Origin: Cellulomonas sp.
Lineage (GTDB): Bacteria; Actinomycetota; Actinomycetes; Actinomycetales; Cellulomonadaceae
Assembly: GCF_015234515.1 (NCBI RefSeq)
Contig: NZ_JADGMY010000028.1
Span: 412,713 to 476,712, forward strand
Direction of reading: 5' to 3'
DNA length: 64,000 nucleotides
In this document: one piece after another, positions 9,785-62,774 of the stretch
How positions within the stretch are numbered: the first letter of the stretch is position 1
How the letters are laid out: each line of letters starts with the position of its first letter
Notes under the pieces: generated by a model
What the model was told of the DNA's origin: nothing
The model's database searches: none
What the model saw: the letters and a program-made list of their open reading frames with translations, nothing else
Made by a program: the position numbers and the translations under genes

Positions 9785-9818
9785 GACAGTAGCCCTCCGC
9801 CCCCCACGTCCCCGGGGC

Positions 9819-9842
9819 GGACGCCCCGGGGATCAGCCGCGC
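9819..9842 (-). terminator. Terminator after urtE
   Basis: A perfect 10-bp stem (TCCCCGGGGC / GCCCCGGGGA) with a 4-nt loop lies 9 bp beyond the urtE stop. It should end the urt transcript and keep the downstream GntR gene transcriptionally separate. Confidence 0.75.
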
Positions 9843-32286: not shown

Positions 32287-32574
32287 TCAGCCCTGCGCGG
32301 GTGCGCCCTGCCCACCTGCCGCGTCGGGGGCGGCGGCCCCGTGGCCGGACCGCGGGACCAGGTCACGCAGGGCGGCGACGGCGTCGTCGTCGGCCTGCAC
32401 GGCGGTGACGTTCTCGACGCGCACCGCGTCGAGCACCTCCGCACGGTGGACGCGCACGTGGCGGGGAGCGTCGATGCCCAGCCGGACGCCGTCGGACCGC
32501 ACCTCGAGGACGGTGACGACGATGTCGTCCCCGATGACGAGGCTCTCTCCGACACGACGGGTGAGCACGAGCAT
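32287..32574 (-). CDS. csrA: Carbon storage regulator CsrA
   Basis: This 95-residue RNA-binding translational repressor begins MLVLTRRVGESLVIGDDI and continues VTVLEVRSDGVRLGIDAP and RHVRVHRAEVL, the complete CsrA dimer core. A C-terminal extension of about 35 residues (GHGAAAPDAAGGQGAPAQG) is unusual. In Gram-positive flagellates CsrA represses flagellin translation and is antagonised by FliW, which is also encoded here. It lies between flhF-like and cheA; whether it is transcribed with the flhA group is not clear. Confidence 0.95.
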   Translation of the reverse strand: MLVLTRRVGESLVIGDDIVVTVLEVRSDGVRLGIDAPRHVRVHRAEVLDAVRVENVTAVQADDDAVAALRDLVPRSGHGAAAPDAAGGQGAPAQG

Positions 32575-53758: not shown

Positions 53759-54196
53759 TCAGCCGACCCCGAGCAGGCCCGTGCCGGAGGCCGGTGCCGG
53801 CGTGCCCGCGACCGGCGCGGCCGCGTCGCGGGCCGACTGCTCGGCCGCCTCGCGCCACGTGCGCGCGATCGGCTCGACGACGCGGGCGCACGCCCGCACC
53901 CGCTCGACGTCACCGGCGGCCGAGGCCGCGAGCAGCTCGCCGTGCAGCCACGTGTAGATCGACAGCAGCCCCGGCCCGCCCTCCCAGCCGTCGACGTCGA
54001 GGCTGGCGATGAGCTCGGCGACGATCTCCTGCGCGTGCGCGAGCTGCTGGGTGGCCCGCGGACGCTGCCCCGCGTCGAGCGCGTGGGCGGCGCGCTCGAC
54101 GTCGAGCAGCAGCCGGTCGCACAGCATCGTCAGCAGCCGTGCCGGGCTCGCGGTCTGCACCGAGGTCGCGACGTAGCTGCTGCGGGCGTCGTACAT
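53759..54196 (-). CDS. fliS: Flagellin export chaperone FliS
   Basis: This 145-residue four-helix protein begins MYDARSSYVATSVQTASPAR, LLTMLCDRLLLDVERA and contains AQEIVAELIASLDVDGWEGG and LLSIYTWLHGELL, the FliS pattern. It holds FliC unfolded for export. The Ala/Pro-rich last 20 residues are an add-on. It starts 12 bp after fliD. Confidence 0.94.
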   Translation of the reverse strand: MYDARSSYVATSVQTASPARLLTMLCDRLLLDVERAAHALDAGQRPRATQQLAHAQEIVAELIASLDVDGWEGGPGLLSIYTWLHGELLAASAAGDVERVRACARVVEPIARTWREAAEQSARDAAAPVAGTPAPASGTGLLGVG

Positions 54197-54208: not shown

Positions 54209-55606
54209 CTACTTCGTCGACTGCTGGTCCAGTGCCGCGATCTGGCTGGCGAGATAGCTCGACTGCGCGGACAGCCGCGACAGCGTCGTCTCGAGCGCCG
54301 CGTACTGCCGCTCGAGCGCGCTGCGGCGCATGGCGAGCCGGTCGTCCCAGCCGGACATGCGGTCGCCGAGGTCGCGCACCGTCGTCTGCTGGGCCTCGAC
54401 CGCGAGCGTCAGCGTGCCGTCACCGCTGCGGGAGGCCACGGTCGCCATCTCCGCGAGGCGCGAGGCCACGCCGCTGACGACCGCCTGCACCTTGTCGGGG
54501 TCCTTCGCCAGGGCGGCGGCGAACGCCTGCTCGTCGAACGTGAACGTGCCGTCGCGGTTGATGACGATCCCGACGTCGGAGGGCGACGTCCCGTCCACGG
54601 GCATCGACGCCTCGGTCATGACCTGCTGCTGGAGCAGGCGGATGCGCGTGTCACCGGCGAAGAGCCCGCCGCTGACGACGGTGCGACCGTCCTCGTCCGT
54701 GCTCTCCTTCGACTTCGTGCGCGAGGCGATCTCCGAGAGCACGACGTTGACGTTGGCGACGAGGTCCGATGCGAGCTTCTGCAACGCGGCGTCGTCCGGG
54801 GCGACCGTCACCGTGAGGGGCTCGGCCCCAGGGGCCGTCACCGCCGTCACCGTGAGGTCGACGCCCGTCATGACGCCGTCGAAGGTGTTCGAGGACGACG
54901 TGAGCACCTGCTCGGCGCCCGACCCGGGGAACAGCGTGATAGCCGCGTCCGAGGCTGCCCGGATCGTCCGGAGGTCGACGGCCACGTCGCCGTCGGCTCC
55001 CGCGTAGGTGAGCGTGAAGGCGTTCTGGGTGCCGGTCTCGGTGCCGGTGAGCTGCAGGCGGTACGTGCTCTCACCGGTGGGCCGGCCCTGGTCGTCGAGC
55101 ACGGGGAGCTTGACGGCGGTGGCGCGCACACCCGTCCCGGACGCGTTGAACGCGTCGACGAGGTCGGGCACGTCGGCGCTGCGCGCGGTGACGGTGACGG
55201 TCTCGCCACCCCTCGTCAGCGTGAAGGTCGCCCCGTCCCCGGCGTGGTCACCGGGCGCGGGGAGCGTGACGAGCGACGCCTGGGACTGCGCGACCGCGTC
55301 GACACGGAACGTCAGGGTGCCCGAGGTGGCGGTGCTGCCGACCGCGGTGGTGGCGCCCGGGGCGCTCACCCCGGCCTGGGTCACCGTGCCGGACACCGCC
55401 TGCCAGGACGCCGGCCTGGCGGCCGCGGTCGCGGCCTCCGCGAGCGAGGACACTCTCGTCGTGAGGGACTCCAGCGCGCTGGCGAGCGACTGCGCGGCCG
55501 CCTTCTTCGAGGCCAGCTGCCGCTGCGTGCCGGCCTCGAGGTAGATGAGGTTGTCGATGAGGTCGCCCGTCTTGATCCCGCTGACAAGCCCGTCGATCGT
55601 CGCCAT
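54209..55606 (-). CDS. fliD: Flagellar filament cap protein FliD
   Basis: This 465-residue protein has the N-terminal MATIDGLVSGIKTGDLIDNL-IYLEAG with a coiled segment (KKAAAQSLASALESLTTRVS), the D2-D3 middle (NTFDGVMTGVDLTVTAV), and C-terminal VGIVINRDGTFTFDEQAFAA and RLSAQSSYLASQIAAL. ATG 55606 has AGGAGG upstream. It is separated from fliC by two hairpins, so it may have its own promoter, which I could not identify. Confidence 0.95.
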   Translation of the reverse strand: MATIDGLVSGIKTGDLIDNLIYLEAGTQRQLASKKAAAQSLASALESLTTRVSSLAEAATAAARPASWQAVSGTVTQAGVSAPGATTAVGSTATSGTLTFRVDAVAQSQASLVTLPAPGDHAGDGATFTLTRGGETVTVTARSADVPDLVDAFNASGTGVRATAVKLPVLDDQGRPTGESTYRLQLTGTETGTQNAFTLTYAGADGDVAVDLRTIRAASDAAITLFPGSGAEQVLTSSSNTFDGVMTGVDLTVTAVTAPGAEPLTVTVAPDDAALQKLASDLVANVNVVLSEIASRTKSKESTDEDGRTVVSGGLFAGDTRIRLLQQQVMTEASMPVDGTSPSDVGIVINRDGTFTFDEQAFAAALAKDPDKVQAVVSGVASRLAEMATVASRSGDGTLTLAVEAQQTTVRDLGDRMSGWDDRLAMRRSALERQYAALETTLSRLSAQSSYLASQIAALDQQSTK

Positions 55607-55652
55607 CGAGGGTCCTCCTGGTGTCCGGTGCCGTGTGGCCGTGCGTGGAGCA

Positions 55653-55687
55653 CGACCGGCGGTGGGCGGGGCGCCCACCGCCGGTCG
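55653..55687 (-). terminator. Second hairpin downstream of fliC
   Basis: A perfect 15-bp stem (CGACCGGCGGTGGGC and complement) with a 5-nt loop, 40 bp beyond the fliC stop. Confidence 0.75.
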
Positions 55688-55725: not shown

Positions 55726-56898
55726 TCACTGCAGCAGCTGCAGGACGGACTGCGGCAGCGCCTTCGCCTGCGCGAGCATCGCGGTGCCCGCCTGCGAGAG
55801 GATCTGCGCCCGCGTGAACGCCACCATCTCCTCGGCCATGTCCGTGTCACGGATGCGGCTCTCCGACGCGGAGAGGTTCTCCACGGCGACGTTGAGGTTG
55901 TTGATGGTGTGGTCGAAGCGGTTCTGCACGGCACCGAGCTGCGAACGGACCTTCGAGACGGCCTCGATCGCGTTGTCGATCGCCGTGATGGCGCTCTGCG
56001 GGCCACCCGTGCCACCGACCGCGTCGGCACCGCCGGCGAGCGTGACGCCGGTGAGCCCCGTGACCGCGCCGTTGCCGGCCACACCGGCGGCGACGGCCTT
56101 GACGGTGACGTCGTAGTTCGCCGGGGTCGTGGCGTTGGCCGTGACGGTCACCGCGTAGTTGGCGCCGGCAGCGGTCTGCAGCGCGGTCTGGACGTCGGCG
56201 GCGGTCGGGGTGCCGGTGAGCGCCGTGCCGCCCTTCATGGTGTTGACGGCCGTCAGGGCGAGGTTCGTCTGGGTGGCGCTGGCCTGTGCGGCCGTCGTCC
56301 CCCCGGCGCTGTCCGCCGTCACGTCGATGCCCGTGAGGCCGAGGCCACCCGAGGACAGACCGCCCGTACCGGTGACACCGGTCGCGAGGCCGGCGAGGTC
56401 GGTGGTGGTGAGCCCGACCTTGATCTGGTTGTCGTCGCCCGTGTTGGCACCGACGTGGAAGACGCCCGAGTAGGTGCCGTCCAGGAGCTTCGCCCCGTTG
56501 AACTGCGTCGTCTTGGCGATGCGGTCGAGCTCGGTGCTCAGCTCGCCGATCTCGTCCTGGATGTTGGACTTCGCCGCGGCCGACAGACCACCGGTGTTGG
56601 CGGCCTGCACCGACAGGGTGCGCATACGCTGCAGGATCGAGTGCGTCTCGGTGAGCGCACCCTCCGCGGTCTGGACGACGGAGATGCCGTCCTGGGCGTT
56701 GCGGACGGCCTGCTTGGTGCCGCCGATCTGGGCGCGCAGGCCCTCGGAGATCGCCAGGCCGGCCGCGTCGTCGGCCGCGCGGTTGATCCGCAGACCGGAC
56801 GAGAGCTTCTCGAGCGAGGACGACAGGTCACCCTGCGTCGCCGAGAGGTTGCGGTACGAGTTCATCGCCGCGATGTTCGTGTTGATGGAGAGACCCAT
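55726..56898 (-). CDS. fliC: Flagellin FliC (Hag)
   Basis: The 390-residue filament subunit has the conserved N-terminal D0/D1 region (MGLSINTNIAAMNSYRNLSA, LSSGLRINRAADDAAGLAIS) and C-terminal region (VENLSASESRIRDTDMAEEM, ILSQAGTAMLAQAKALPQSV-LQLLQ). Residues about 170-290 form a surface-exposed, Thr/Gly/Ala-rich variable domain. A strong AAGGAGG precedes ATG 56898. Only one flagellin gene is present in the window. Confidence 0.98.
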   Translation of the reverse strand: MGLSINTNIAAMNSYRNLSATQGDLSSSLEKLSSGLRINRAADDAAGLAISEGLRAQIGGTKQAVRNAQDGISVVQTAEGALTETHSILQRMRTLSVQAANTGGLSAAAKSNIQDEIGELSTELDRIAKTTQFNGAKLLDGTYSGVFHVGANTGDDNQIKVGLTTTDLAGLATGVTGTGGLSSGGLGLTGIDVTADSAGGTTAAQASATQTNLALTAVNTMKGGTALTGTPTAADVQTALQTAAGANYAVTVTANATTPANYDVTVKAVAAGVAGNGAVTGLTGVTLAGGADAVGGTGGPQSAITAIDNAIEAVSKVRSQLGAVQNRFDHTINNLNVAVENLSASESRIRDTDMAEEMVAFTRAQILSQAGTAMLAQAKALPQSVLQLLQ

Positions 56899-56902
56899 GG
56901 TT

Positions 56903-56944
56903 CTCTTCCTCCTTGAGTCGGGTCAGGACAGCCCATCCGTGGGC
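56903..56944 (-). promoter_or_regulatory. Two candidate CsrA sites in the fliC leader
   Basis: In the message a small hairpin GCCCA-CGGA-TGGGC (56931-56944) presents GGA in its loop, the preferred CsrA target. A second AAGGA overlaps the Shine-Dalgarno at about 56903-56910. This two-site layout resembles the Bacillus subtilis hag leader. csrA and fliW are both in this window. Confidence 0.6.
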
Positions 56945-56953
56945 ACGACCTGC

Positions 56954-56980
56954 TCATCGGAGGCGCCGGCCCGCTCCTGA
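56954..56980 (-). promoter_or_regulatory. Candidate FliA promoter of fliC
   Basis: On the minus strand TCAG (56977-56980), 15 bases, then TCCGATGA (56954-56961). Expected leader about 49 nt. Confidence 0.65.
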
Positions 56981-57002: not shown

Positions 57003-57875
57003 TCAGGCGGTGTGGACGCCGGTCTCCGAGGAGACCGGCCCGTGCTGCGTCGGCACGGCCGCCGAGGGCGCGGTGACGGCGCCGGCGAGCGCCGCCCGCG
57101 CCGCGATCGCCGCGTAGTACGCCTGCCGCCGCCGCTCGGCCACGCCGTCGGGCCGCGTGGGGGCGGCGACGAGGTCGGGGTCGAACGCGGTGTTCAGGCC
57201 GTCACGCATGAGGTTGAGCGCCTCGGTACGGAGCTGGCTGATGCGCGACTGCGTCACGCCGAGCTCGGCGGCGAGGTCCGCGATCGTGCCGTCGTGCAGG
57301 TACAGCCCTTCGACGACGACGCGCAGCCGCTCGGGCAGCTCGGCGACGGCGGCCCGCAGCCAGTGCGCGCGCTCCTGGGTGAGCACCTCCTCCTCAGGGG
57401 TGCGCGACGGGTCGCGCAGCGAGTCCGCGACAGAGCTCTCCGGCACGTCGAGGGAGAGCACACGCCGCTCGGCGTCGAGCCGGGCCGCGTCGACGGCCTG
57501 CGTGTCGACGCCCATGGCCTCGGCGAGCTCGGCCCTCGTCGGGGTCCGGCCGAGGGCCGCACGCAGCCGCTCCGCGGCGCACTCGAGCTCGCGTCCGCGC
57601 CGGCGGGCACCGCGGGTCGCCCAGTCCATCGAGCGCAGCTCGTCGAGGATCGCGCCCTTGATCCGCAGCGTCGCGTACCGCGCGAAGGGCACGTTCGTCG
57701 ACGGGTCGTAGGCGCGGGCGGCGAGCACGAGAGCGAGCGCACCGGCGGACGCGAGCTCGTCGCGGGTGACGGTCGGGGGCACTCGGTGCAGCGCCTCGGT
57801 AACGTTGTAACCGACGAGGGGCAGGTGCTCGAGGACGAGGGCCTCAATGTCGGCCTCGGGAGGGGAAACGCTCAC
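57003..57875 (-). CDS. fliA: Flagellar sigma factor FliA (sigma-28/WhiG type)
   Basis: The 290-residue sigma factor has region 2 (LVLEHLPLVGYNVTEALHRV, then AYDPSTNVPFARYATLRIKG and AILDELRSMDWATRGARRRG), region 3 (GRTPTRAELAEAMGVD) and region 4 (LPERLRVVVEGLYLHDGTIA, ELGVTQSRISQLRTEAL). The RSMDW motif is typical of FliA/WhiG. About 45 Ala-rich residues follow region 4. GTG 57875 has no visible ribosome site and may be leaderless. It is the likely reader of the seven TCA(G/C)-N15-CCGAT sites. Confidence 0.93.
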   Translation of the reverse strand: MSVSPPEADIEALVLEHLPLVGYNVTEALHRVPPTVTRDELASAGALALVLAARAYDPSTNVPFARYATLRIKGAILDELRSMDWATRGARRRGRELECAAERLRAALGRTPTRAELAEAMGVDTQAVDAARLDAERRVLSLDVPESSVADSLRDPSRTPEEEVLTQERAHWLRAAVAELPERLRVVVEGLYLHDGTIADLAAELGVTQSRISQLRTEALNLMRDGLNTAFDPDLVAAPTRPDGVAERRRQAYYAAIAARAALAGAVTAPSAAVPTQHGPVSSETGVHTA

Positions 57876-58222: not shown

Positions 58223-58720
58223 GTGAGCACGAGAGCAGTCCTCGAGCGGCTGTCCGAGGTGCTGTGGCGCGAGCGCCACCTCCTCGAGCTGCTGCTGTTC
58301 AAGCTGGAGGAGGAGCAGCTCGTCCTCACCTCCGGGCGCACCCGCTGGCTCGGCCACGCCACTCGCGAGGTCGAGGCGGTGCTCGACGAGATCCGCACGG
58401 CCGAGCTCGGGCGCGCCGTCGAGGCGGACGCCGCCGCGCAGGCCCTCGGGCTCGAGCCCGGCGCGAGCCTCGCCGAGCTCGCCGCGCACGCGCCCGCCCC
58501 GTGGGACGAGCTGCTGCGCACCCACCGCGACGCGTTCGCGTCCCTCACCGCCGAGATCTCCGCGCTCGCCGACGGCAACCGCGAGCTGCTCGCGGTCTCG
58601 CACCGTGCCGCGCAGGAGACACTCATGTCCCTCCGGGACACCGTCCAGACGTACGACGGCTCCGGTCAGCGGAGCAACGTCGCCGTCCCGGACGCCCAGC
58701 TCGTCGACCGGTCCATCTAG
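58223..58720 (+). CDS. flgN: FlgN-family export chaperone
   Basis: The 165-residue helical protein (LSEVLWRERHLLELLLFKLE, EEQLVLTSGRTRWLGHATRE, VEAVLDEIRTAELGRAVEAD) matches the FlgN fold pattern and sits directly before flgK and flgL, its export clients. GTG 58223 follows GGAGGAG. First gene of the plus-strand late-flagellar unit. Confidence 0.88.
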   Translation: MSTRAVLERLSEVLWRERHLLELLLFKLEEEQLVLTSGRTRWLGHATREVEAVLDEIRTAELGRAVEADAAAQALGLEPGASLAELAAHAPAPWDELLRTHRDAFASLTAEISALADGNRELLAVSHRAAQETLMSLRDTVQTYDGSGQRSNVAVPDAQLVDRSI

Positions 58721-58734
58721 GGAGCACCAACCAC

Positions 58735-60147
58735 GTGAGCACCTTCTCCGGCCTCGGCACGGCCCTGAGCTCGCTCGTCGCGCAGCGTCAGGCGCTCGAC
58801 GTGTCCGCCCAGAACGTCGCCAACGCGAACACCGTCGGTTACACGCGCCAGCGCGCCTCGCTCGTCGCGGTGCCCGGCCAGACGCTCCCGGCGATGTTCG
58901 CCACGGGCGACGGCATCGGCAACGGCGTGCGCGCCGCGACCGTCGACCGCCTCGGTGACGTCTTCCTCGACGCCAAGGTCCGCGCCGCGAGCTCGAACGC
59001 CTCGTTCCTCACCGCCCGCGCCGACGCGCTGGCCACGCTCGAGAAGAGCCTCGGCGAGCCCTCAGAGACGGGCCTCGCCGCCCAGCTCGCGGACTTCTGG
59101 GGCGGCTGGGCGGACGTCGCCAACGGCTCCGACCGCGACGCGGCCCGGGCCGTCCTGCTCGAGCGCGGCGTGGCCGTCGCCACGGCGGTGCAGACCCGCT
59201 ACAGCGACGTGCAGACGCAGTGGCAGCAGGCACGTGGCACCGCCGTCGCGCTCGTCGACCGCGTCAACGCAGCCGCCGCGTCGATCGCCGACCTCAACGA
59301 GAAGATCCTGGCCATCGAGAACTCGGGCGGCACCGCCCACGAGCTGTCCGACCAGCGCGACCTGCTCGTCACCGAGCTCTCGGGCCTCGTCGGGGCGTCG
59401 ATGCGGACCCGGGACAACGGGCAGGTCGACGTGCTCGTCGGCGGCAACGCGCTCGTCTCCGGCACGCACGTGAGCACGCTCGAGCTCGGCGGGCCCGCCG
59501 CGTTCTCGCAGGCCATGGCCGGGCAGTCCGTGACCGTCGTGTGGGCCGACGGCGCGGGGCACCGCGCCGAGCTCGGCGGCGGCCGCATCGCCGGCCTCGT
59601 CTCCGTCCTCGCGCCCGCGGGCGACGGCGGCCTGCTCACCGGCGCGGGCGCGCGGCTCGACGGTCTCGCCCGCTCGCTCGCGGACGCGGTCAACGACGTC
59701 CACGCCCAGGGCGTCACCCGCGACGGCACCCCCGGTGGGCCCTTCTTCACGCAGGACCCGGCGGGAGCGCTCGACCTGCGGGTCGTCCTCACCGACCCCG
59801 CCTCGGTCGCCGCAGCCGCCCCGGGCACGGGCGCGCTCGACGGGTCGGTCGCGGCGCGGGTCGCCGCGATCGGGTCGACGTCGGAGGGCCCGGACGCGAC
59901 GTGGCGCTCGATCGTCACCGACCTCGGCGTCCAGGCCGCTGCGGCGACCTCGCGGGCCACGGTCTCGCAGAAGGCGCTGCAGTCCGTGTCGCTGCAGCAG
60001 CTCGCGAACGCGGGCGTCGACCTCGACGAGGAGTCGGTGAGCATGCTCGCGCACCAGCGTGCGTACGAGGGTGCCGCACGAGTCCTCACCGTGATCGACG
60101 AGATGCTCGACACGCTCATCAACCGCACCGGCATCGTCGGGAGGTGA
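58735..60147 (+). CDS. flgK: Flagellar hook-filament junction protein FlgK
   Basis: This 470-residue protein has the axial N-terminus FSGLGTALSSLVAQRQALDV, SAQNVANANTVGYTRQRASL, a coiled D1 region (ELSDQRDLLVTELSGLVGAS) and the C-terminus VDLDEESVSMLAHQRAYEGA-ARVLTVIDEMLDTLIN. GTG 58735 restores the family start; the ORF-track extension upstream is the flgN shadow. Confidence 0.95.
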   Translation: MSTFSGLGTALSSLVAQRQALDVSAQNVANANTVGYTRQRASLVAVPGQTLPAMFATGDGIGNGVRAATVDRLGDVFLDAKVRAASSNASFLTARADALATLEKSLGEPSETGLAAQLADFWGGWADVANGSDRDAARAVLLERGVAVATAVQTRYSDVQTQWQQARGTAVALVDRVNAAAASIADLNEKILAIENSGGTAHELSDQRDLLVTELSGLVGASMRTRDNGQVDVLVGGNALVSGTHVSTLELGGPAAFSQAMAGQSVTVVWADGAGHRAELGGGRIAGLVSVLAPAGDGGLLTGAGARLDGLARSLADAVNDVHAQGVTRDGTPGGPFFTQDPAGALDLRVVLTDPASVAAAAPGTGALDGSVAARVAAIGSTSEGPDATWRSIVTDLGVQAAAATSRATVSQKALQSVSLQQLANAGVDLDEESVSMLAHQRAYEGAARVLTVIDEMLDTLINRTGIVGR

Positions 60148-60152
60148 CCGGA

Positions 60153-61055
60153 ATGGTCGCTCGCATCACTCATGGCACGATCCAGCGCTCCACGCTGGCC
60201 AACCTCCAGACCAACCTCACGGCCGTCGCGCGCCTCCAGGCCCAGATGTCCAGCGGCACGAAGATCTCGGTGCCCTCGGACGACCCGGCCGGCGCGCACG
60301 ACGTGCTCCGGCTGCGTGCCGACCAGCGCACCGCGGTGCAGCACAAGCGCAACACCGACGACGGCGACGCGTGGCTCACCACCATCGACACAGCCCTCCA
60401 GGCCTCGCTCGCCATCGTGCGCCGGTCGCGCGACCTCGCGGTCCGCGCCGGTGCGCAGGGCTCGCTCGGCCCGGACTCCCGCGAGGCGCTGGCCGCCGAG
60501 GTGGAGGCCCGTCGCGACGAGCTGCTCCAGCAGGCCAACTCGACGTACTCGGGCCGGCACGTCTTCGCCGGGACGAGCGCAGACGCCGCGTTCGCCGTCG
60601 ACACCTCGACGCCGACGCGCACCTACGTGTGGTCCGGCACCCCCGCCGCCACGGTGACCCGCGAGGTCGGGCCGGGCACGAACGTCCGGGTCGACGCCGA
60701 CGGCTCGGCGGTCTTCGGTGTCGGGGGCGCGTCGGTCTTCGCGGCGCTCGACCGGCTCGCCGCCGACATCCGCGCCGGCGCCGACATCTCCCCGTCCATC
60801 GACGCGATCGACGCCCACATGTCGAGCATGCTCCGGGAGGTGGCCGCCGTCGGTGCCCGCCACAACCAGGTGCTCGGCGCCAAGGACGTCCTCGCCGAGC
60901 GCGACATCACGCTGCGGACGCAGGTCTCGGCCCTCATCGACGTCGACCTCGCCGCGATCATCGTCGAGATCCAGTCCCAGGAGCTCGCCTACCGCGGCGC
61001 CCTCGGGGCGGCGTCGAAGGTGCTCGCGCCCTCGCTCATGGACTTCCTGCGATGA
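60153..61055 (+). CDS. flgL: Flagellar hook-filament junction protein FlgL
   Basis: This 300-residue flagellin-like protein has MVARITHGTIQRSTLANLQT, AQMSSGTKISVPSDDPAGAH, NSTYSGRHVFAGTSADAAFA and the C-terminal IIVEIQSQELAYRGALGAAS-KVLAPSLMDFLR. ATG 60153 has GGGAGGTG upstream; GTG 60144, overlapping the flgK stop, is an alternative adding three residues. Confidence 0.95.
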   Translation: MVARITHGTIQRSTLANLQTNLTAVARLQAQMSSGTKISVPSDDPAGAHDVLRLRADQRTAVQHKRNTDDGDAWLTTIDTALQASLAIVRRSRDLAVRAGAQGSLGPDSREALAAEVEARRDELLQQANSTYSGRHVFAGTSADAAFAVDTSTPTRTYVWSGTPAATVTREVGPGTNVRVDADGSAVFGVGGASVFAALDRLAADIRAGADISPSIDAIDAHMSSMLREVAAVGARHNQVLGAKDVLAERDITLRTQVSALIDVDLAAIIVEIQSQELAYRGALGAASKVLAPSLMDFLR

Positions 61056-61483
61056 GCACCGCGGGCGTGACCGTCGCCACGCCGGACGGGCCGCGCGCGC
61101 TGCCGGCCGTGCTGCGCACCGCCCGGCCGCTGCCCGGCCTGCCGGAGCACGAGGAGTTCACGCTCGCACCGCTCGACGGCTCGGGGGCGGTCCTCACCCT
61201 CACCTCGACGCCGGGTCGAGCGCGGCCGGTCCGGTTGTTCGTCGTCGCGCCGCACACGTTCTTCCCGTCCTACGCGCCCGAGGTGCCCGCCGACACCCGC
61301 GCGACGCTCGGCCTGGCCGAGGGCGAGAGCCCCGTGCTGCTCGCCGTCGTCCACCCCGCCGGCGTCGACCGCGAGGTGCCGTCGGCGAACCTGCTGGCGC
61401 CGCTCGTCGTCCACCCTGCCGACGGCCGGGTGGTCCAGGCCGTGCTCGACGGGGACCTGCCGTTGCGCGCACCGCTCGGCTGA
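61052..61483 (+). CDS. fliW: Flagellar assembly factor FliW
   Basis: This 143-residue protein shows the FliW pattern: LPGLPEHEEFTLAPLDGSGA, RLFVVAPHTFFPSYAPEVPA, VLLAVVHPAGVDREVPSANL and LLAPLVVHPADGRVVQAVL. FliW binds CsrA and, competitively, flagellin, thus coupling flagellin synthesis to secretion. It overlaps the flgL stop (ATGA). Confidence 0.93.
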   Translation: MSTAGVTVATPDGPRALPAVLRTARPLPGLPEHEEFTLAPLDGSGAVLTLTSTPGRARPVRLFVVAPHTFFPSYAPEVPADTRATLGLAEGESPVLLAVVHPAGVDREVPSANLLAPLVVHPADGRVVQAVLDGDLPLRAPLG

Positions 61484-61568: not shown

Positions 61569-62774
61569 GTGAGCATCCCGTCCACCCCCGTCCGCACCGG
61601 TGTGACGATCCAGCGGCAGCCCGTCCTGCACCCCGACCGCAGCGTCTTCGCCTACGCGGTGCGCGGCGTCGTCCCGGACGTCGACGGCCGCCCGATGCCC
61701 GAGGGCTCGGTCGAGCACATGGTCGACGCGATGTTCCGCACCATCGACCTGGAGACGCTCGCCGGCGAGCGCCCGCTCGTCGTGCGACTCACCCGCGGCC
61801 TGCTCGCCTCCCCCGGCGAGCTGCTCCACCTGCCACGCGGCGTCGTCCTCGAGGTCCCGCCGCACGTGCTCGCGGACCCGACGGCGCTCGACCGCCTGCG
61901 CGCCATGGTCGACGACGAGCAGCGCCTGGCCCTCGCGGACTACGTCGGCCGGCCGGACCAGGACGCGGCGCTGCCGCTCGTCCAGATGGTCAAGGTCGAC
62001 GCCGCGTGCGACCGCAGGCTCCTCGACGTGCGCGTCGCGCGGGCGTCGTCACGCGGTGCCGTCGTCGTCGCCGAGAACGCCACGACGCCGGCCCGCGTCG
62101 ACGCCGCCCTCGAGGCCGGTGCCGAGCTGCTCCAGGGGCCGCTCGTCATCGACCGCCGCCATGAGCCCGAGCGCGCGATGAGCGTCGGCGAGATCCAGTG
62201 CGTCGAGCTCATCCGCCTCGTCTCCGGCCCGAACCCCGACCCGGCCGCGTGCGCCGACACCATCTCGCGCGACCCGGAGCTCTCCATCCGCGTGCTCCAC
62301 CTCGTCAACTCCTCGGCGATGGGCGTGCGGCACAAGGTGGACTCGGTGCAGCGCGCCGTCGTGCTGCTCGGCCCGCGCCCGCTCGGGGCGCTGGCGACCG
62401 CGGCGATCATCGGCTCGACGCCCGCGACGATGGAGACCCTCTGGTACCTGCTCACGCGTGCCACGGCCTGCGGCACGATCGTGGGCGACGACGTCGCCTA
62501 CACCGTCGGCCTGCTGTCCTCGGTCGCGGCGCGGCTCCAGCTCCCCCCGGCGACGATCGTCTCCCGCTCCGGGGTCTCGGCCGAGGTGGCCGACGCCCTC
62601 GAGCGCGGCACCGGCCGCTACGGCCCGGTGCTGCGTGCCGTCCTCGCCCAGGAGCGCAACGACAGCGAGGGCGTCGCCGCGGCCGGGTTCGACCCGCGCG
62701 ACGTCGCCCGCGCCTACCTCGACGCGGTCGCCACCGCGCTGTCCGTCGCGAGCCGCATCGCCGCGACCGGCTGA
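61569..62774 (+). CDS. EAL-HDOD (YuxH-like) signalling protein
   Basis: This 401-residue protein has an N-terminal EAL-like domain whose catalytic residues are lost (RQPVLHPDRSVFAYAVRG in place of an ExLxR signature; VQMVKVDAA keeps the fold), then an HDOD domain (VELIRLVSGPNPDPAACADT, LHLVNSSAMGVRHKVDSVQR, AVVLLGPRPLGALATAAIIG). This architecture is YuxH/CdgJ-like; relatives affect motility without cyclic-di-GMP hydrolysis. GTG 61569 has CAGGAGG upstream. It likely belongs to the FliA regulon. Confidence 0.87.
   Translation: MSIPSTPVRTGVTIQRQPVLHPDRSVFAYAVRGVVPDVDGRPMPEGSVEHMVDAMFRTIDLETLAGERPLVVRLTRGLLASPGELLHLPRGVVLEVPPHVLADPTALDRLRAMVDDEQRLALADYVGRPDQDAALPLVQMVKVDAACDRRLLDVRVARASSRGAVVVAENATTPARVDAALEAGAELLQGPLVIDRRHEPERAMSVGEIQCVELIRLVSGPNPDPAACADTISRDPELSIRVLHLVNSSAMGVRHKVDSVQRAVVLLGPRPLGALATAAIIGSTPATMETLWYLLTRATACGTIVGDDVAYTVGLLSSVAARLQLPPATIVSRSGVSAEVADALERGTGRYGPVLRAVLAQERNDSEGVAAAGFDPRDVARAYLDAVATALSVASRIAATG

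Follow-up and report, generated by a model that had tools for sequence, protein, structure and literature searches.

The 5′ leader of the flagellin gene fliC in this Cellulomonas genome is very probably a two-site CsrA operator of the hag/flaA kind that works within a CsrA-FliW-flagellin circuit. The leader has a GGA-loop hairpin at its 5′ end and a CA-N-GGA motif over the Shine-Dalgarno (SD) sequence. The hairpin covaries and is conserved in relatives, csrA and fliW co-occur with flagellin, and the presence of FliW goes with an asparagine at residue 55 of CsrA. By analogy with Bacillus subtilis and Campylobacter jejuni, one CsrA dimer (or two) would occupy the hexaloop ACGGAU and the CAAGGA of the SD, thereby keeping ribosomes off and flagellin translation low. 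FliW, when free, would bind CsrA at its N55 surface and relieve the block, whereas cytoplasmic flagellin would bind FliW, with the result that flagellin would be made only during its export. The original prediction held that the homeostatic switch of B. subtilis also operates in actinobacteria. For this the comparative evidence is favorable (a conserved leader, the components and N55); the binding and repression by CsrA and the relief by FliW would carry over from the studied systems.

Gene layout and anatomy of the fliC leader

The flagellin gene fliC (55726-56898, minus strand; PF00669 and PF00700) starts with an ATG at 56898, and a flagellin search returns Actinotalea subterranea as the nearest named genome. 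Downstream of it are fliD (54209-55678, minus; PF07195 and PF02465) and the flagellin chaperone gene fliS (53759-54196, minus; PF02561). Directly upstream is a FliA/WhiG-family sigma factor gene (57003-57875, minus), in which sigma-70 regions 2-4 score over cut-off and TIGR02479 gives 164.6 bits, under the curated cut-off of that model. As predicted, csrA (32287-32574, minus; PF02599, 86 bits) and fliW (61052-61483, plus; PF02623, 64 bits) are encoded in the same window, the whole 64,000-nt stretch of DNA that was analysed. Both score above cut-off, csrA is single copy in the genome, and the CsrA-FliW-flagellin gene set is complete.

The fliW gene ends a same-strand run headed by flgN (58223-58720, plus; PF05130). 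Next in the run are flgK (58735-60147, plus), which has a GTG start and was assigned by position and sequence resemblance rather than by an individual scan, and flgL (60153-61055, plus), assigned by a PF00669 match of 71.7 bits plus gene order. The flgL stop is overlapped by the fliW ATG (ATGA, 61052-61055). Co-transcription of fliW with flgN-flgK-flgL had been proposed; the gene run and the overlap agree with the proposal, and from this layout we infer that the four genes are transcribed together.

A putative FliA/sigma-28-type promoter lies between the sigma factor gene and fliC. On the minus strand it consists of a -35 element TCAG (56980-56977), a spacer N15 and a -10 element TCCGATGA (56961-56954). 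Related leaders have a similar arrangement, with CGAT 21-26 nt ahead of the loop GGA in 64 of 78 and a -35-like motif in 63 of the 64 that carry CGAT. The position of the promoter places the transcript start near 56948-56946, which makes a leader of ~49 nt a reasonable estimate. This leader (56948-56899, minus strand) reads TCGTGCCCACGGATGGGCTGTCCTGACCCGACTCAAGGAGGAAGAGAACC-ATG.

Putative CsrA site 1 is the hairpin GCCC-ACGGAU-GGGC (56931-56944, minus) at the 5′ end of the leader. Its hexaloop is of the classical CsrA type ANGGAN, with the GGA at 56938-56936. Putative site 2, CAAGGAGG (56908-56915, minus), has its CAAGGA at 56915-56910, inside the SD of fliC, and the starts of the two GGA triplets are 26 nt apart. 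Sequence and fold therefore match the predicted anatomy of a 5′ GGA-loop hairpin and an AAGGA overlapping the ribosome site, in a leader whose length is set by the promoter. Taken alone, the site 1 hairpin has a folding energy of -7.8 kcal/mol, a modest distinction given that 13 of 200 shuffles are equally good (z = -1.77), and the full 69-nt fliC leader is no more stable than its shuffles would suggest (z = 0.13). Folding energy alone thus proves nothing and was dropped as evidence.

Conservation and specificity of the two sites

We collected 116 leaders from the host's family and from named actinobacteria (Leifsonia, Cryobacterium, Arthrobacter, Salinibacterium, Blastococcus, Geodermatophilus, Planosporangium and others); the 78 distinct ones among the 114 with the ANGGAN-type core were aligned. 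Conservation of the hairpin in relatives, proposed as a check on the idea, is evident: 62 of 64 distinct family leaders form a GGA-loop hairpin with 4 bp or more, compared with 3.8% of shuffled leaders. Rather than losing the loop GGA by drift, close relatives keep it, as the ANGGAN-type core is present in 114 of the 116 leaders while the stem varies by compensatory pairs. One family genome (G106) lacks the hairpin; its other flagellin gene is cut by a contig end. A strict hairpin rule missed half of the named actinobacteria, because their stems are short or interrupted by an internal A-A mismatch, and the alignment was used in its place.

The loop GGA is present in all 78 aligned leaders, and the loop A is found in all distinct hairpin sequences except one. 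These leaders had been selected with a core pattern, failed by 2 of the 116, in which the loop and the two innermost pairs are set in advance. The covariation evidence therefore rests on the six outer pairs, which were unselected. Across the 78 leaders, both-sided changes occur at seven of the eight stem pairs, with 101 compensatory cells against 39.4 ± 4.9 after shuffling. The covariation score of the stem is 0.388, compared with 0.117 for shuffled alignments and at most 0.135 in slid controls, and 80% of stem cells are paired (61% when shuffled).

Site 2 coincides with the SD. The CsrA consensus ACA-R-GGAUGU requires the CA, whereas the ribosome does not need it. CA-N-GGA is present at the SD in 75 of the 78 leaders, but in only 16 of 363 (4.4%) SD-like sites that precede the other open frames of these loci, an enrichment of ~20-fold. 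RNAalifold predicts only the first helix, so site 2 is probably single-stranded.

The element is also specific. Covariance model R1 scores the fliC leader at 53.4 bits, compared with 13.7 bits for the next match in the window and 29.2 bits for the next in the 4.2-Mb genome, and the two-site element is found in the host genome at fliC only. The three lesser matches in the genome (29.2, 25.0 and 21.4 bits) were rejected, as two of them, including the 29.2-bit match, resemble an SD but have no GGA hairpin, and the third falls within an open frame. Strong R1 matches in other loci precede flagellin genes, among them extra flagellin copies of Cryobacterium, and the model also matches two Clostridia flagellins (25.1 and 20.7 bits). 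An Rfam scan of the window detected no family at threshold, including no CsrB/RsmZ-type sRNA, and the element is thus a candidate for a new Rfam family.

Even as a CsrA target, the leader could serve another end: the main role of CsrA might be to alter mRNA stability or to activate, or the leader might serve mostly to titrate CsrA. Both have precedents, as CsrA stabilises the Escherichia coli flhDC mRNA (cited in PMC2587704) and the C. jejuni flaA leader also titrates CsrA (PMC4894983). We consider this improbable, given that CA-N-GGA lies over the SD in nearly all of the leaders, an arrangement shared with the repressed hag and flaA mRNAs, and that the element is confined to fliC in the host. 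Translational repression is the reading we prefer.

Across the phylum, conservation is partial. In distant actinobacterial classes, 31 of 64 leaders pass a relaxed rule for a GGA hairpin, compared with 4.1% of shuffles, and by a relaxed test 25 of 51 genomes outside the close relatives have both sites in at least one flagellin leader. A clade of four loci (L202, L208, L213 and L227) has the hairpin GGC-ATGAG/ATGAA-GCC, in which the loop GGA is gone, and retains the SD site CAAGGAGGATGA despite this loss. The flagellin genes near fliW in G318 (L245) and G199 (L247) have neither the hairpin nor CA-N-GGA, their SD being GAGAAAGG; another flagellin copy of G199 has both. G318 gives no csrA match. 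In G502 (L206), which lacks FliW and whose sole CsrA has R55, the flagellin leader that was found is also without both sites.

A role unrelated to CsrA was also considered. The hairpin lies at the estimated transcript start and GGA is inherent in SD sequences, so a 5′ stabiliser, or the initial transcribed region of a FliA promoter, combined with a trivial SD resemblance could be imagined. A stabiliser would need no more than a stem, yet the unpaired loop GGA is invariant, the CA ahead of the GGA in the SD is overrepresented relative to other SD-like sites, and both sites are missing where csrA has no match (G318) or where only an R55 CsrA remains without FliW (G502). We regard a role unrelated to CsrA as very unlikely and retain the operator reading.

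FliW and residue 55 of CsrA

The distribution of csrA and fliW follows that of flagella. In the host's family, csrA is found in 56 of 121 genomes, exactly those with flagellin or FlgL matches, and fliW in 55 of these 56. Among 397 genomes of the phylum, 59 are flagellin-positive, with csrA in 58 and fliW in 57, whereas the remaining 338, which give no flagellin match, have csrA in 15 and fliW in 1. All but one of these fifteen csrA-bearing genomes (e.g. L313-L327) are also without fliW.

The window's CsrA (95 aa) has the RNA-contact residues L4, R6 and R44, the FliW-contact residue N55 and a C-terminal extension beyond ~55 aa. Among solved structures, it is closest to the CsrA of the CsrA-FliW complex 5dmb, with which it aligns through residue 72. 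The window's FliW has diverged far enough to fall short of the NCBIfam equivalog cut-offs, and is remotely matched to the solved FliW 5dmb_A (E = 9e-5). PMC7829508 and PMC13407953 describe N55 as essential to the interaction of CsrA with FliW in B. subtilis, C. jejuni and Geobacter sulfurreducens, where N55D or N55A abolishes or weakens it; for Bacillus, the abolition of binding by N55D is credited there to Mukherjee 2016.

A CsrA with N55 is encoded in every FliW-containing actinobacterial genome examined. The non-N55 rows among them belong to second CsrA copies of G242, G339 and G459, apart from one row of G201 that is misregistered by a one-residue insertion. In the FliW-less genomes, N55 is present in 0 of 16 CsrA copies, which represent fewer than 16 independent events, since a CsrA tree (residues 1-50) has ~5 changes of N55. 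The most telling of the FliW-less genomes, G012 (L173 and L130), belongs to the host's family and has flagellin, CsrA and an intact fliC leader. Its CsrA has D55, and fliW is undetectable even at E 10, an HDOD-type gene directly following flgL. Its relative G015 has both FliW and N55. Since G012 keeps the leader without FliW, the two are separable.

In the window, an HDOD-domain gene (61569-62774) starts 86 bp past the fliW stop. An HDOD-type gene is apparently next to flgL in G012 too, so this gene may belong to the flagellar set.

CsrA could also repress fliC while actinobacterial FliW served as a flagellin chaperone only and not as a CsrA antagonist, as might fit the ~28 kb and separate operons between csrA and fliW and the divergence of the window's FliW from the equivalog families; the phylum-wide tracking of N55 with FliW, down to the N55D change in the one fliW-less member of the family, makes such a restricted role hardly credible.

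Two CsrA copies each are encoded in G242, G339 and G459 (L308-L310 and L328-L330), one with N55 and the other with R55 or Q55. This suggests that a FliW-controlled flagellar CsrA is paired with a FliW-independent CsrA in these genomes.

Relation to known systems

The proposed FliW-antagonised operator closely resembles C. jejuni flaA (Dugar et al. 2016, PMC4894983). Both leaders are short (45 nt in flaA), with a 5′ GGA-loop stem-loop, another ANGGA covering the ribosome-binding site and compensatory changes in relatives. FliW is the antagonist in C. jejuni; it is encoded here too and by analogy would act in the same way. However, the SD site of flaA is in a second stem-loop, whereas no second helix is conserved here.

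B. subtilis hag (Yakhnin 2007 and Mukherjee 2011, as summarised in PMC7652899 and PMC6529632) likewise has two CsrA sites, one of them over the SD. As here, FliW is present and the CsrA has N55 and a C-terminal extension. The gene order differs in that fliW and csrA are adjacent and translationally coupled in B. subtilis, whereas here fliW follows flgN-flgK-flgL and csrA is ~28 kb away in the same window.

The idea is not conceptually new, because CsrA control of the Kineococcus radiotolerans flagellin Krad1626 was proposed in 2008 (PMC2587704) and Actinobacteria were listed in 2015 as probable FliW users (PMC4682653). Kineococcus is likewise an actinobacterium with csrA in a motility island, and the SD region of Krad1626 equals hag BS2 at 9 of 12 bases. 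The proposal was based on the SD site alone in this single species, and involved no hairpin, covariation or FliW (PMC2587704). In a 2023 survey of actinobacterial flagella, CsrA and FliW appear solely in a gene list. In the literature searched, which took in few subscription papers, neither the hairpin nor its covariation is described for Actinobacteria. What is new is a covariation-supported, widely conserved leader that matches no Rfam family, together with the correspondence between FliW and N55.

Experiments have established the control of flagellin by CsrA and FliW in Firmicutes and Campylobacterota, as well as the binding of CsrA to FliW in Geobacter; for Actinobacteria, the literature searched offers only brief suggestions. 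The covarying operator and the match of FliW to residue 55 bring the actinobacterial circuit within reach of tests that use short RNAs and a pair of small proteins. They also favor the idea that antagonism by FliW is an ancient mode of CsrA control, and the natural loss variants offer a means to dissect it.

It is possible, though we put it forward tentatively, that evolution is dismantling the circuit in actinobacteria. G012 would have lost fliW and acquired N55D while keeping the leader, leaving a CsrA-flagellin circuit without its antagonist, and in G502 FliW, the N55-type CsrA and the leader sites would have gone, leaving the second, R55-type CsrA. To the same tentative picture belongs a mini-flagellin of Cryobacterium, perhaps a FliW ligand or a regulatory decoy.

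The mini-flagellin is encoded in seven Cryobacterium genomes (loci L008, L010, L018, L020, L021, L023 and L049). It is 113-123 aa long, with an N-terminal start and a partial Flagellin_C domain, and its gene lies just ahead of the full flagellin gene, preceded by its own two-site CsrA-type leader (element ends at ~9805-9835 of these loci). Pairwise dN/dS values of 0.06-0.14 indicate that it is under purifying selection.
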